Assembly (NCBI GenBank): GCA_003242645.1
Contig: QGVC01000011.1
Coordinates: 1 to 26,006 of the forward strand
Source: Pseudomonadota bacterium
Lineage (GTDB): Bacteria > Pseudomonadota > Alphaproteobacteria > Rhizobiales > Hyphomicrobiaceae
Length of the DNA: 26,006 nucleotides
Direction: 5' to 3'
The notes under the pieces were generated by a model, which worked only from the letters and a program-made list of their open reading frames with translations, searched no databases and was not told the DNA's origin. Below, piece by piece: positions 7,691 to 12,302 of this stretch. A program made the translations under genes and the position numbers. Positions within the stretch are counted from its first letter, which is position 1, and the number at the start of each line of letters is the position of its first letter.

Positions 7691-8623
7691 ATGACGAGCC
7701 ATACGCATCTTTTCGACCTTCGAGCGCTGGCGCAGCGCCGCGATCGCGCAGCGCCTGGCATGGCCGCGCACGATTTTCTCCTGCAGCGGGTGGCTGAGGA
7801 TTTATTGGTCCGCCTCGGTGCGGTGAACCGGCGGTTTTCCACCGTAGTCGATCTCGGCGCCCATCACGGCGTCCTCGCGCGGGGTGTCCGCCAGCTGCCA
7901 GGGGTGTCCCTGGTGATCAGCGCGGACTGCTCATGGCGGATGCTCAGCCTCTGTCCGCCGCCTCGCGTGCTGGTCGACTTGGAGGCTTTGCCGTTTGCGG
8001 ACGCATCCCTCGATCTCGTGGTGTCGGGGCTGACCTTGCACTTGGTGAACGATCTACCTGGGACGCTCGTCCAGATTCGCCGTGCGCTGAAGCCCGATGG
8101 CCTCCTGTTGGCAGCAGTGTTAGGCGGCCAAACGCTTTCGGAGTTGCGGGAAGCGTTCCTGCTTGCCGAATCGGAGCTCGAAGGCGGGGCGAGCCCGCGC
8201 GTTGCGCCGTTTGCCGATGTCCGAGACTACGGCGGACTACTCCAGCGAGCTGGGTTCGCCCTTCCCGTTACCGACACGGATGTCGTGACGGTGACCTATT
8301 CCTCCCCACTGGCGCTGATGCAGGACCTGCGCGGCATGGGGGCAACGAACGTCCTGACCGCCCGCCGTCGAGTGCCGCTGCGCCGAAGCACGCTGATGAG
8401 GGCTTGCGAAATTTACGTGGAGCGCCATGGCCGTCCTGACGGGCGCATCCCCGCGACGTTCGAGATCATCACCTTGACAGGGTGGGCGCCGCACGAGAGC
8501 CAACAGAAACCGTTGCCCCCCGGCTCCGCTCGAGCCCGTCTCGCTGATGCCTTGGGAACGCGGGAGATCCCAGCTGGCGAGAAGGCGCCCGGCCTCTCCC
8601 GAAGCGCGCCAAAGGGCAAATGA
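7691..8623 (+). CDS. SAM-dependent methyltransferase-fold protein (NDUFAF5/BioC-like)
   Basis: 310 residues. It begins THLFDLRALAQRRDRAAPG, the alphaproteobacterial version of the NDUFAF5 N-terminus. SAM motif I is VVDLGAHHG at 52-60, a variant of the usual GxGxG loop. LDLVVSGLTLHLVNDLPGTL and RRALKPDGLLLAAVLGG supply later class I motifs. The C-terminal half (LRGMGATNVLTARRR, then FEIITLTGWAPHESQQKP) is characteristic of this subfamily. Human NDUFAF5 is a complex I assembly factor reported to hydroxylate an arginine of NDUFS7, so a bacterial complex I role is plausible but unproven here. Divergent from comF with a 99-bp gap. Its stop codon sits within the T-run of an opposite-strand terminator. 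Confidence 0.85.
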   Translation: MTSHTHLFDLRALAQRRDRAAPGMAAHDFLLQRVAEDLLVRLGAVNRRFSTVVDLGAHHGVLARGVRQLPGVSLVISADCSWRMLSLCPPPRVLVDLEALPFADASLDLVVSGLTLHLVNDLPGTLVQIRRALKPDGLLLAAVLGGQTLSELREAFLLAESELEGGASPRVAPFADVRDYGGLLQRAGFALPVTDTDVVTVTYSSPLALMQDLRGMGATNVLTARRRVPLRRSTLMRACEIYVERHGRPDGRIPATFEIITLTGWAPHESQQKPLPPGSARARLADALGTREIPAGEKAPGLSRSAPKGK

Positions 8624-8733
8624 AAAGCGCCCAACTCCGGGGGGAGGAGTTGGGCGCGAGGAGCGCTATCAGCGCCTGGCGCCGGGAGGGACTCCGACGC
8701 CGCAGGCAGCGTCTTCGGCTAGACGGGGGGCAC
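8619..8733 (-). ncRNA. candidate small RNA with C/U-rich anti-Shine-Dalgarno segments (alpha-r14/suhB-like architecture)
   Basis: This gap lacks a plausible ORF but has every part of an sRNA gene on the minus strand. A perfect TTGACA (8762-8757) lies upstream. The 3' end is a 12-bp hairpin followed by TTTTCATTT. Three C/U-rich segments are exposed or loop-proximal: CCCCCC (8730-8725), CCCTCCC (8690-8684) and CTCCTCCCCCC (8649-8639), all complementary to Shine-Dalgarno GGAGG. Internal hairpins include a 7-bp stem at 8696-8713 (loop CCTG) and, as an alternative, CGTCT/AGACG (8710-8725). Alphaproteobacterial trans-acting sRNAs such as the alpha-r14/suhB family carry repeated CCUCC-type loops that block ribosome binding. 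Membership in a named family is inferred from architecture. The 5' end is approximate (8727-8733), and processing from the lolA 3' region is an alternative. Confidence 0.5.
8623..8657 (-). terminator. intrinsic terminator of the minus-strand small RNA
   Basis: Minus strand GCGCCCAACTCC (8657-8646) pairs with GGAGTTGGGCGC (8638-8627) around a 7-nt TCCCCCC loop. TTTT (8626-8623) follows immediately. The plus-strand side has no T-run, which fixes the direction. Confidence 0.75.
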
Positions 8734-8762
8734 TACCGATACAGGGTGACGCCGCCTGTCAA
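8734..8762 (-). promoter_or_regulatory. probable promoter of the small RNA
   Basis: Consensus -35 TTGACA at 8762-8757. The -10 is unclear: TCGGTA at 17-bp spacing (8739-8734) or TATCGG at 15-bp spacing (8741-8736). No plausible ORF is served by it. Confidence 0.4.
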
Positions 8763-8890
8763 CCCTTAGTTAAGCCTACCTAGCACGATTTCAATAGAGG
8801 GAGTCTTGTCCGTTCACGAAAACGTGACCGGAAGTCGTCCCATTTCGAACAACTTTCGTTTGCCCGCGGCGAACAATCCACAGGCTGTAG

Positions 8891-9622
8891 TCACCGCTGA
8901 AGCTTCTTCAGAGTGAGATTCTCCCGTTTGAACAAATTGGGGTCGATCTCCGCGGTCGCGTCCACCTGCGAGAGCTGAACACGCGTTTCCAACCCTTGCG
9001 CATCGACGGTCACCCACTCCTTGAGCATCAGCTCTGGATCCTTGGTCAGGAAGAGTGTGATCCGGCCGGACACGTCCGGGTCTTTGTCCTGCAGTGTGAT
9101 GATGATCAGATCCTCAACTTCCTGCACATCGAAGATGCGCGCATCACGCAGCAAATCGACGTCTTTGCGCAGAAGGAGTCGGAAGGGCGTATTGTCGAGC
9201 TCGTACACGTCCTCAGTGTTGAGGTCGTGATCCTGAATGGCGAGCCACCTCCCATCGGAGATGATGACCTTCAGGCTGGGGGAGCCGTAATCGAAGCGAA
9301 ACCGGCCCGGCTTCTTGACGTAGAACTTACCCCGCATCTGCTTCTTGTCGGGGTCGGTCTGCAGGAAGCGGCCCTGCAGGTTATCTAGCTCGTTGAAATA
9401 AGCGTTGACCTTCGCAATTGTGGCCAGCTGCTCTTCCGTGAACTCCGCTTCTGCGGAGTCCGCTGGGGTTACCGTTCCGGTCCACTCCGGACTAGCGGCC
9501 TCAGTGCTCTCCTCAGCCGGCTGGGCTGGAGCCTCTTGTTGCGCCAGAGCCGAGCCAACCGTTCCAAACAATGCGAGCAGGCAAGCGGCAACCGCCGCCG
9601 CTACCGCCACAATCGCGCGCAT
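8891..9622 (-). CDS. lolA: LolA-family outer-membrane lipoprotein carrier protein
   Basis: 243 residues. A signal peptide (hydrophobic core of Ala, Val and Leu, cleavage near SALAQ) is followed by a low-complexity Ala/Glu/Pro linker (about 27-65). The LolA domain begins near LATIAKVNAYFNELDNLQGRF. Typical strands are FYVKKPGRFRFDYGSPS, VIISDGRWLAIQDHDLN and the ending ATAEIDPNLFKREN. LolA shuttles lipoproteins across the periplasm from LolCDE to the outer membrane. I chose the ATG at 9620-9622 because GGAAGGGGG lies just upstream. It is 138 bp downstream of ftsK on the same strand; a weak promoter (TTGTGC, 16 bp, TAGATT at 9715-9688) could serve it. The distinct N-terminal linker makes it longer than enterobacterial LolA. 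Confidence 0.9.
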   Translation of the reverse strand: MRAIVAVAAAVAACLLALFGTVGSALAQQEAPAQPAEESTEAASPEWTGTVTPADSAEAEFTEEQLATIAKVNAYFNELDNLQGRFLQTDPDKKQMRGKFYVKKPGRFRFDYGSPSLKVIISDGRWLAIQDHDLNTEDVYELDNTPFRLLLRKDVDLLRDARIFDVQEVEDLIIITLQDKDPDVSGRITLFLTKDPELMLKEWVTVDAQGLETRVQLSQVDATAEIDPNLFKRENLTLKKLQR

Positions 9623-9760
9623 TCCGCCCCCTTCCTTGATCAAGGCTCGTGGTGATCGTTGTCGCAACAATGAGACCAGATGTGGGCAATCTATCTGCCC
9701 GAATCAGTTGCACAAGCTCCTCCCAACTACCGGACTGTGGACGGAGCAAATTTGTTCATC

Positions 9761-12268
9761 TCAGGGCGCGGTCGAGGTTGCCGAAAGCCCGCTCACCAGG
9801 ATCTCGCGCTTGCCAACGGCATTCGCCGGACTGACGATACCCTCCCGCTCCATACGTTCCATGAGATCGGCAGCGCGGTTGTAGCCGATTGAAAGCCGGC
9901 GCTGCAGGTAGCTCGTCGACGCCTTGCGATCGCGCAGAACGATGGCGACAGCCTTCTCGTAGAGATCGCCCTCGCTGCTCTTCCCGTTGCCTGCCGCCCC
10001 GAAGTCCTCGGGTTCCTGAGGACCATCGGTGATGCCTTCGACGTATTCCGGCTCGCCCTGCTCTCTCAAGAACTGCGCGATGCTCTCGACCTCCTCGTCG
10101 GAAACGAAGGGGCCGTGAACACGGATGATCTGGCCCGACCCCGGCGAGAACAGCATATCGCCTTGCCCGAGCAGCTGCTCCGCGCCCTGCTCGTTCAAGA
10201 TCGTGCGGCTATCGACTTTCGAGGCCACCTTAAAGCTGATGCGCGTCGGGAAATTGGCCTTGATGGTTCCGGTGATGATGTCGACTGATGGCCGCTGCGT
10301 CGCCATGATGAGGTGAATCCCTGCCGCGCGCGCCATCTGCGCCAGCCGCTGCACCGCAGCCTCGATCTCCTTCCCGGCGACGATCATCAAATCGGCAAAC
10401 TCGTCGACGACGACGACGATGTAGGGCATCGGCTCGAGATCGAGCTCCTCGGTTTCAAAAACTGCCTCGCCGGTGCGCCGATCGAATCCGGTCTGCACGG
10501 TGCGCCGCATCCGGTCGCCGCGGATCTTCGCGTTCCGCACTCGATTGTTGAATACGTCGATATTCCGCACACCGAGCGCCGCCATGCGCTTGTAGCGCTC
10601 CTCCATTTCGCGCACGACCCAGTTGAGCGCAGCGACTGCCTTGTGCGGATCGGTGACGACCGGCGTCAGCAGATGCGGGATGCCGTTGTAGACCGACAGC
10701 TCCAGCATCTTCGGGTCGATCATCAGCAACCGGCAATCCTCGGGCGTCAGCTTGTAGAGCAACGACAGCACCATCGAGTTGATGCCGACCGATTTGCCGG
10801 AGCCCGTCGTGCCAGCAATCAGGAGGTGCGGCATACGGGCCAAGTCAACGACGACTGGGTCACCGTTGATGGCCTTGCCGAGGGCGAGCGGGAGCCGCGC
10901 GTCGGTGGAGCGGAAGGCTTCCGTCTCGAACAGCTCCCGAAGCAGCACGATTTCGCGCCGCGTGTTAGGCAGCTCAATTCCGATCACATTACGGCCCGGG
11001 ACCACGGCGACCCGCACTGCCGTGGCACTCATCGACCGGGCAATGTCCTCGGCCAAGCTGATGATCCGCGAGGATTTGATGCCGCGCGCTGGTTCCAGCT
11101 CGAAAAGCGTAACTACCGGGCCAGGCTTGATGTCTTTGATCTCGCCCTTGATGCCGAAGTCCGCCAGGACATCTTCGAGCAACCGCGCCGTGCCTCGCAG
11201 AACGGTCTGGGTAAACTCAGGACCCGGCTTACCTCCCGCCGGCTTCTTCAACAGATTGACGCCCGGCTTGCGAAAGGCAGAAGAGTCGCCCCGGTGGAGC
11301 GGAAACCGGAGCAGACCGGAGCTCGCGGGTCGCGCTGGTCGCGGAGCCGCTTGCGCATTGGCTGGAGCAAATCGCTGCGCAATGCGGCGGCTTTCCTCAT
11401 CTTCGAATTCCGGATCGAGCGCCGGACCGTCAGTCAGACTGTTGGCCTCCTGTTCCGAAGGAGCGCGCCCCAAGTCGGCTTGTCCAACGGAACGCCTTGG
11501 CATCAGGTCTGGCTCCGGTGCCCAGTCACGCGGGCCAAGAGGTAGGACCGGCTCAATTGGCTCCCGCTCCCGCGTCACGCGCTGCCGGCGTCCACGGAAG
11601 ATGGCTGGAAACTGAAGGCTTGGACGGAACCTGACGGGGGGCGTTGTCACCCGCCGCGCGGCAGCTTCCGGCTGCCAAAACTCGGATGCCCAACGTCCGC
11701 TCAGCCCCAGAGAGCAGGTGAACGCCGCGAGCCCGCCGGAAAACATTAGGAGCCCCGCCACCGCTCCCGAGCGGACGGGCACCGCCGTCGCGACCAATCC
11801 AGCTGACAGGTTGTAGAGTAAATCGCCGATGATGCCACCAAACCCGTTATGCAGCGGCCAGTTTGCGGCAGTAGGAAGCGCGGAGCAGCCAGCGGCCAAC
11901 CCAAGGATTGACAGGGCAAACAGGACAATCCGCGACCGGAGGAATGGCAGGCGGCCACTCGAAAGCAGCTCAAAGCCCCATACCGCCGGCGCCAGCGCCA
12001 GAAACGCCGATGCCAGGCCCAGCAACTGCAGCATCAGATCAGAGATGATGGCACCACCAGTCCCAAGAAGATTTCGCGTGGGACCGATGGCAACCGTATG
12101 CGTCAAGCTTGGATCACTGACCGACCAGGAGACCAAGCTGAGCCAAGCGGCGACACCGAGGAGAAGGAGCGCGACACCGACACAGCGGGAAACCCAGCTC
12201 GAAAGCCTGTCCTCCACCGAAGTGGGGAGTAACCGCTGCTGATCGAACTCGTAACCCCGCTGCAACAT
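9761..12268 (-). CDS. ftsK: DNA translocase FtsK
   Basis: About 835 residues. Four transmembrane helices anchor the N-terminus at the division septum (near 31-50, 80-104, 113-131 and 163-190). A Pro/Arg-rich linker follows, shorter than in E. coli. The motor domain has Walker A GTTGSGKS (about 486-493) and Walker B VVVVDEFADLM (about 616-627). The C-terminal winged-helix gamma domain (DLYEKAVAIVLRDRK to VGKREILV) reads polar KOPS-type sequences. It pumps chromosome DNA toward the dif site during division. The ATG at 12266-12268 is preceded by an in-frame GTG (12269-12271), either of which could start it. It sits between an aminotransferase gene and lolA, all minus strand. Confidence 0.96.
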   Translation of the reverse strand: MLQRGYEFDQQRLLPTSVEDRLSSWVSRCVGVALLLLGVAAWLSLVSWSVSDPSLTHTVAIGPTRNLLGTGGAIISDLMLQLLGLASAFLALAPAVWGFELLSSGRLPFLRSRIVLFALSILGLAAGCSALPTAANWPLHNGFGGIIGDLLYNLSAGLVATAVPVRSGAVAGLLMFSGGLAAFTCSLGLSGRWASEFWQPEAAARRVTTPPVRFRPSLQFPAIFRGRRQRVTREREPIEPVLPLGPRDWAPEPDLMPRRSVGQADLGRAPSEQEANSLTDGPALDPEFEDEESRRIAQRFAPANAQAAPRPARPASSGLLRFPLHRGDSSAFRKPGVNLLKKPAGGKPGPEFTQTVLRGTARLLEDVLADFGIKGEIKDIKPGPVVTLFELEPARGIKSSRIISLAEDIARSMSATAVRVAVVPGRNVIGIELPNTRREIVLLRELFETEAFRSTDARLPLALGKAINGDPVVVDLARMPHLLIAGTTGSGKSVGINSMVLSLLYKLTPEDCRLLMIDPKMLELSVYNGIPHLLTPVVTDPHKAVAALNWVVREMEERYKRMAALGVRNIDVFNNRVRNAKIRGDRMRRTVQTGFDRRTGEAVFETEELDLEPMPYIVVVVDEFADLMIVAGKEIEAAVQRLAQMARAAGIHLIMATQRPSVDIITGTIKANFPTRISFKVASKVDSRTILNEQGAEQLLGQGDMLFSPGSGQIIRVHGPFVSDEEVESIAQFLREQGEPEYVEGITDGPQEPEDFGAAGNGKSSEGDLYEKAVAIVLRDRKASTSYLQRRLSIGYNRAADLMERMEREGIVSPANAVGKREILVSGLSATSTAP

Positions 12269-12302
12269 CACGCCACTTGGATCTACGACACAAGCCGAGA
12301 AA

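Follow-up and report, generated by a model that had tools for sequence, protein, structure and literature searches.

The 267-bp gap between the stop of a methyltransferase gene (8623) and the stop of lolA (8891) in the window (the whole stretch of 26,006 nucleotides of DNA that was analysed) contains an unannotated small-RNA gene, the reality of which is confirmed when judged by conservation and covariation; by the same measure it is a strongly conserved gene, ordinary in its kind and new in its reach. The predicted RNA (minus strand, 8618 to 8760, approximately 140 nucleotides) probably belongs, as its representative in the Hyphomicrobiaceae, to a vertically inherited family of RNAs encoded at the lolA locus of the Alphaproteobacteria, which includes RusT of Caulobacter and would act in trans through C-rich loops. 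Its prediction draws upon the z-score of its fold, covariation in 59 sequences and linkage to lolA, and its 5′ end is placed about 7 nucleotides after a ‘-10-like’ box.

The gene to which the RNA is linked, lolA (8891 to 9670, start approximate; Pfam LolA, 1.3e-30), lies upstream of it on the same strand and is followed in the numbering of the window by ftsK (9761 to 12271, minus strand; Pfam FtsK_SpoIIIE, 1.7e-73), while the convergent methyltransferase gene (7691 to 8623, plus strand) closes the gap on the other side. A LolA profile was used to fetch 80 further loci, of which the first 63 were examined for the RNA; the named relatives of the window’s LolA are mostly from the Hyphomicrobiaceae. 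(One LolA protein, P0045, which is 65% identical to that of the window, is labelled Leptospira interrogans, and probably comes from a contaminated or mislabelled record.) The RNA was found 3′ of lolA, downstream and on the same strand, in the window and in 59 of these 63 loci, 53 of them through a fixed sequence pattern and six by eye (one, L015, is cut by a contig end). The RNA is missing from four loci: L003 and L057, each at a contig end, L059 and L061. A model of the RNA does match in the genomes of L057 and L061, and gives no match in those of L003 and L059. The methyltransferase gene, a non-conserved neighbour, found no match in the 63 loci (four of which have less than 1 kb downstream of lolA), and a search for xth next to lolA gave nothing in the window or in any of the 63, while FtsK accompanies lolA in 59 of the 63; it is therefore with lolA that the RNA stays.

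Read along the minus strand, the RNA consists of an outer stem drawn around a hairpin with a loop of six C residues, a hairpin with the loop AGUCCCUC, a ‘GCGC’ hairpin and a terminator, so that the predicted fold comprises four stem-loops of which the last is the terminator. The arms of the outer stem, CAGGCGGCGTC (8748 to 8758) and GACGCTGCCTG (8703 to 8713), enclose hairpin 1 (8715 to 8739; TCGGT...GCCGA), whose loop AGUGCCCCCCGUCUA holds the run CCCCCC at 8730-8725. Hairpin 2 (8678 to 8701) pairs GGCGTCGG with CCGGCGCC and displays the run CCCUCCC at 8690-8684, and hairpin 3 (8662 to 8676; GGCGCU/AGCGCU), which is predicted from the fold, is a candidate Hfq-binding hairpin by analogy with stem-loop 3 of RusT. 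The terminator (8627 to 8657) has a 12-bp stem and the loop TCCCCCC, within a third run, CUCCUCCCCCC, at 8649-8639, and is followed by TTTTCATTTG; the T-rich tail is TTTTCATTT (8618 to 8626). The gene-free gap, the hairpins, the 12-bp stem with its T-run and the three C/U-rich runs had all been described in an initial annotation of this DNA, and each is present at its described place. In the folding model the RNA exceeds chance: 8760-8617 folds at -75.1 kcal/mol (z = -5.89, with none of 200 shuffled sequences as low), and 8731-8617 folded alone still gives z = -4.86. The number of terminator-like matches in the interval is, taken alone, not beyond chance (one found, against a shuffle mean of 0.6).

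The conservation of this structure was examined in an alignment of the window with 58 of the relatives’ loci (59 sequences, L015 being left out), for which a consensus fold of 32 base pairs in four helices was modelled: the outer stem, hairpin 1 inside it, hairpin 2 and the terminator, with the GCGC hairpin between the last two lying outside the modelled structure. Across these 59 sequences 97.3% of cells pair in the consensus fold, against 33-43% for structures slid along the alignment, and within each modelled helix 92-99% of cells are paired. Changes on both sides of a pair occur in 21 of the 32 base pairs, and cells with a double change number 249 where the shuffle mean is 69.1, with none of 500 shuffles reaching as high. 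These changes fall in all seven modelled pairs of the outer stem (each in at least one sequence), in six of eight in hairpin 2, in seven of twelve in the terminator, and in only one of five in hairpin 1, the stem of which is near-invariant; at the place of hairpin 3, a GCGC-N2-8-GCGC pair is found in all 59 aligned sequences. A class-wide alignment, which was fitted to the model, gives 95.6% paired cells and both-side changes in 30 of the 32 pairs. The proposal of the initial annotation, that an unannotated RNA with C/U-rich loops runs along the minus strand to the 12-bp hairpin, is upheld, and the conservation of runs and hairpins that it set as a test is seen: the loops are conserved in sequence, and the outer stem, the stem of hairpin 2 and that of the terminator covary, whereas the stem of hairpin 1 hardly varies.

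The letters of the loops recur: 53 of the 59 family sequences have the hairpin 1 sequence CCCCCGTC, as do all 16 sequences checked from elsewhere in the order (those of 20 order loci that are present in a further alignment, A3), and CCCTCCC of hairpin 2 in 56 of 59 and 15 of 16, respectively. Among class-level sequences, a run of six C residues is present in 21 of 21 and CCCCTCCC in 17 of 21, and the fixed hairpin 2 pattern GG-N1-6-TCCC(C)TCCC[GA] is matched in 56 of 60 family loci, 19 of 20 order loci and 11 of 25 flanked class loci. The C-rich terminator loop, described earlier as one of the C/U-rich runs, is by these sequences characteristic of the family alone: the run CCCCC stands within the final 50 nucleotides of 58 of 59 family sequences but of only 3 of 16 from other order members. 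The further label of ‘anti-Shine-Dalgarno’ tracts fits hairpin 2 best, because the first run, GCCCCCCGUC in hairpin 1, is without the core CCUCC.

The reach of the RNA was followed with two models, R1 and R2, of which R2 was built from 55 author-selected matches over the class (54 sources, with one doubtful row, L026:4481-4591). At E <= 0.001, and with the centre genome (G001, H. facile) included in each count, R1 matched 98 of 103 genomes in the family of that genome, 102 of 249 in its order and 27 of 385 in its class; the 358 class genomes that gave no R1 match were searched, like every set above 40 genomes, with strict filters under which weak true matches are lost. R2, itself trained on class-level matches, matched 45 of 318 genomes. 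Of 20 further genomes chosen through their loci, seven match the model; the 13 that do not are seven small genomes (1.0-1.6 Mb), the two genomes of L003 and L059, and four from Burkholderiales, Casimicrobiaceae, Rubrivivax and an unplaced proteobacterium. A search of plasmids gave no match.

Beyond the family the RNA often lies between lolA and xth. LolA or Exo (xth) flanks were present at 20 of 20 fetched order loci from outside the family (L106-L125, the best scorers), at 18 of 26 best-per-genome class loci (L163-L188), the other eight lacking both, and at nine of 12 loci newly found by the R2 search (L190-L201). Among 19 weak-match regions that were checked, ten have such a flank and nine do not, one of the nine (L223) being an ar14 RNA; since the weak matches are mixed in this way, and many are without a LolA or Exo flank, the counts at E <= 0.001 include chance matches. 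By eye, the matches in L186 and L187 look like the end of a coding sequence. Two weak R1 matches without lolA or xth (L224:1756-1878, 32.1 bits, and L221:1785-1888, 29.2 bits, both on the minus strand and in the genome of L024) were also noted; the L224 match forms two hairpins whose loops are rich in C, and may represent either a 3′ UTR or a further RNA of the C-rich-loop kind.

The RNA of known function that shares this address is RusT (CCNA_R0199) of Caulobacter crescentus, which the available excerpts of its description (PMC11005374) present as a 118-nucleotide, Hfq-dependent transcript of the lolA-xth interval with four stem-loops, bound by Hfq at stem-loop 3, repressed by NtrX, induced by iron starvation or zinc, and directed against mRNAs of TonB-dependent receptors, with a conserved residue (C53) in the loop of stem-loop 2 required for target repression. 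The same excerpts report homologs of RusT for the Caulobacteraceae only. Among the papers listed in the literature searches there was no second study of RusT, and searches by sequence letters and by lolA/xthA gave nothing.

Caulobacteraceae-like genomes were approached through a protein: the genome G628 carries the Hfq most like PDB chain 6gwk (89% identical), and its family was taken. R2 matched 35 of 40 genomes of that family at E <= 1; thirty loci were fetched, with LolA or Exo flanks present at 20 and absent from ten, and one of the loci (L234) duplicates L206, from which one query pair had come. Scores in the flanked loci are modest (E 4.1e-10 to 0.018), and the hairpin 2 pattern fits 14 of the 20 and misses six. 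The xth protein of L226 has, among 120 relatives listed, named ones from Caulobacter sp. and the Caulobacteraceae at 78-82% identity, and it is on the named relatives of this one protein that the placement of the family as Caulobacteraceae-like rests. The RNA of L226 folds into four stem-loops in 119 nucleotides, with its end chosen by eye.

These comparisons make it very probable that the RNA of the window and RusT are of one family, RusT being linked through its locus and through Caulobacteraceae-like genomes rather than through its own letters. Like RusT, the RNA described here lies directly downstream of lolA, is predicted to form four stem-loops with a terminator, and bears C residues in the loop of its second hairpin, the same position in order as the seed-bearing stem-loop 2 of RusT; and the lolA/xth-locus RNAs of the Caulobacteraceae-like family match R2. 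Unlike RusT, it is about 140 rather than 118 nucleotides long, a longer outer stem surrounds its hairpin 1, in which the loop is C6, xth does not adjoin it in the window or in the 63 relatives’ loci, and its upstream region carries a palindrome.

From this kinship a mode of action can be proposed by analogy. The function of the RNA is likely to be base-pairing in trans through its C-rich loops: folded into four stem-loop units (three of the stems supported by covariation, the rest predicted) and ended by an intrinsic terminator, it would present these loops, above all CCCUCCC of hairpin 2, to G-rich translation-start regions and repress translation, as described for RusT and for sX13 of Xanthomonas, which uses its C-rich loops to repress mRNAs that carry G-rich motifs close to their start (excerpts of PMC3771888). 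Hfq would probably be bound near hairpin 3, and the targets, as with RusT, would probably be envelope or transport mRNAs. The likeness to sX13, and to the 6C/B11 RNA of Actinobacteria, lies in the C-rich apical loops; both belong to unrelated lineages and have unrelated structures.

A conserved RNA of the lolA locus might instead act in a manner unlike that of RusT, its C-rich loops serving, for instance, to bind or titrate a protein. The loop of hairpin 1 gives this idea its footing, being near-invariant (53/59 and 16/16) with no simple anti-Shine-Dalgarno sequence, and not having been seen, as a C6 loop, in the Caulobacteraceae-like loci that were read by eye. RusT and sX13, however, are both described in the excerpts of their reports as acting by base-pairing (PMC11005374; PMC3771888), and a mode of action other than pairing is considered improbable.

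The region between lolA and the outer stem contains a conserved ‘promoter-like’ pair: a -35-like box, TTGAAA (8789 to 8794, minus strand), followed after 16 bp by a -10-like box, TAACTA (8767 to 8772). Of the 60 upstream regions, 55 have a TTG box and a T[AT] box separated by 15-17 bp, at a fixed distance from hairpin 1 (shuffles: mean 2.9, maximum 6), the exceptions being L011, L046, L058, L060 and L062; with a spacer of exactly 16 and a distance of 27-30 the count is 52 of 60 (shuffles: mean 0.2, maximum 2), and TTGAA begins 41 of these 52 pairs. A promoter scan of 8400-9000 returned no site. The initial annotation had looked for the promoter in TTGACA, which is indeed present at 8762-8757; it is an unlikely one, because it recurs at the same place in only one of 59 relatives (L053; two of 60 sequences with the window), overlaps the start of the 5′ arm of the outer stem, and lies some 30 nucleotides downstream of the TTGA-N16-TA pair, which is the conserved one. 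As that pair lies further upstream, the transcript probably starts near 8760, and the earlier estimate of about 110 nucleotides gives way to one of about 140. The RNA is probably transcribed from this pair downstream of lolA, which is known by its conservation.

Another reading is that the interval is a mere structured 3′ UTR of lolA, with no independent function as an RNA. Such a reading is in keeping with the position of the RNA, which follows lolA on the same strand and ends in a terminator that lolA would use, and with the retention of the lolA link where xth is not adjacent. It sits poorly with a promoter-like pair of fixed spacing in 55 of 60 regions and with near-invariant loops, and also with RusT, which at a like locus is described in the excerpts of PMC11005374 as being transcribed separately, from a regulated promoter of its own; the chance that the interval is a 3′ UTR and nothing else appears slight.

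A conserved palindrome, TCACGTTTTCGTGA (8814 to 8827, minus strand), which ends 19 bp before the -35-like box, suggests a dedicated regulator for which it would be the candidate site. Its form TCAC-N6-GTGA occurs in 33 of 60 upstream regions (shuffle mean 0.1, the shuffles being approximate) and an element TTT[CT]GTGA in 45 of 60, with GTGA ending 19 bp before TTG in 36 of 43 measurable regions. Motifs of the form CAA-N3-5-TTG, of the NtrX type, are not enriched upstream (nine of 60 regions, against 12.1 in shuffles). A DnaA-like box, TG[TG]GGA[TA]AA, was observed in 30 of 60 regions (shuffles 0.4, approximate), with a degenerate form at 8874-8882 in the window; predicted DnaA sites at rusT are mentioned in the excerpts of PMC11005374. 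As the NtrX-type motifs are not enriched and the DnaA-like boxes occur in only 30 of 60 regions, the regulation of this RNA may differ from that of RusT.

Comparison with catalogued RNAs gave no membership. An Rfam scan at family thresholds found nothing in the window and nothing in 20 loci from elsewhere in the order, and further candidates were rejected on score: 6C RNA (RF01066) reaches 20.9 bits where 47 are required, Acido-1, matched on the plus strand, 25.8 where 50 are required, and Scr3202 24.2 where 52 are required. EcpR1, a family that reaches the Hyphomicrobiaceae, has a different locus, divK-pleD/rpmG, according to the excerpts of PMC4414408. Of the two families named in the initial annotation, suhB is not among the eight matches obtained at E <= 10 on 8560-8920, and alpha-r14 (Rfam ar14, RF02344) reaches 22.9 bits (E 0.022) where its gathering threshold is 58.8.

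The RNA found here might be a distant one of the ar14/NfeR1 or cuckoo/CcsR type, with anti-Shine-Dalgarno loops: both are alphaproteobacterial, with successive hairpins whose C/U-rich loops are thought to pair with ribosome-binding sites, and the ar14 alignment, weak as it is, runs the full length. A weak R1 match of 34.5 bits in one genome (G295, L223:1816-1957, minus strand) moreover coincides with an ar14 RNA of 85.6 bits, and the two kinds of RNA therefore resemble each other in loops and layout, which may reflect common origin or convergence. Those RNAs, however, have CCUCCUCCC unpaired in all three of their hairpins (excerpts of PMC10746234), often occur in several copies per genome and lie at other loci, the cuckoo/CcsR RNAs (CIN1 locus) being associated with the gene of a small DUF1127 protein (excerpts of PMC10253847), whereas the runs of the window RNA are GCCCCCCGUC, UCCCUCCC and CUCCUCCCCCC, and its loops do not each contain CCUCCUCCC. 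Of 249 order genomes, 41 have an ar14 match above threshold, and in all 12 that also have a strong R1 match (at least 49.5 bits) the two lie at different places; none of 30 fetched ar14 loci (L133-L162, from 30 of the 41 over-threshold genomes) has LolA or Exo within 3 kb; and ar14 was found in none of 11 genomes carrying the window-type RNA, a count that leaves absence unproven, as no control genome gave a match. On this evidence a place for the RNA in the ar14 group is very unlikely.

Replacement of the RNA in function by ar14 was also tested, and found no support as an association: among the 249 order genomes, 12 have both strongly, 70 the RNA only, 29 ar14 only and 138 neither (Fisher p = 0.72, on a listing without weak ar14 matches). 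The best LolA loci were examined in 20 of the 29 genomes with ar14 only (L255-L274): all 20 have FtsK, 18 have Exo, and R2 gave no match at E <= 1 in these 20 lolA loci.

A fuller history, in which somewhat less confidence is placed than would make it an even bet, is that much of the Alphaproteobacteria inherited one ancestral RNA at the lolA locus, that it was lost in part of the order, with RusT one derived member; that outside the Caulobacteraceae the near-invariant C-rich loop of hairpin 1 serves as a second, separate seed; and that in the Hyphomicrobiaceae TCAC-N6-GTGA is the site of a regulator.

The window and the 20 related loci stay below threshold for every Rfam 15 family, and R1, with matches in 98 of 103 family genomes, provides a model for annotation, just as the palindrome provides a concrete candidate operator in the search for a regulator. 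If the RNAs of the lolA locus are indeed one family, the results obtained with RusT could be put to the test in Hyphomicrobium and elsewhere in the Alphaproteobacteria, and a single small RNA could be traced at the same address through much of a bacterial class.
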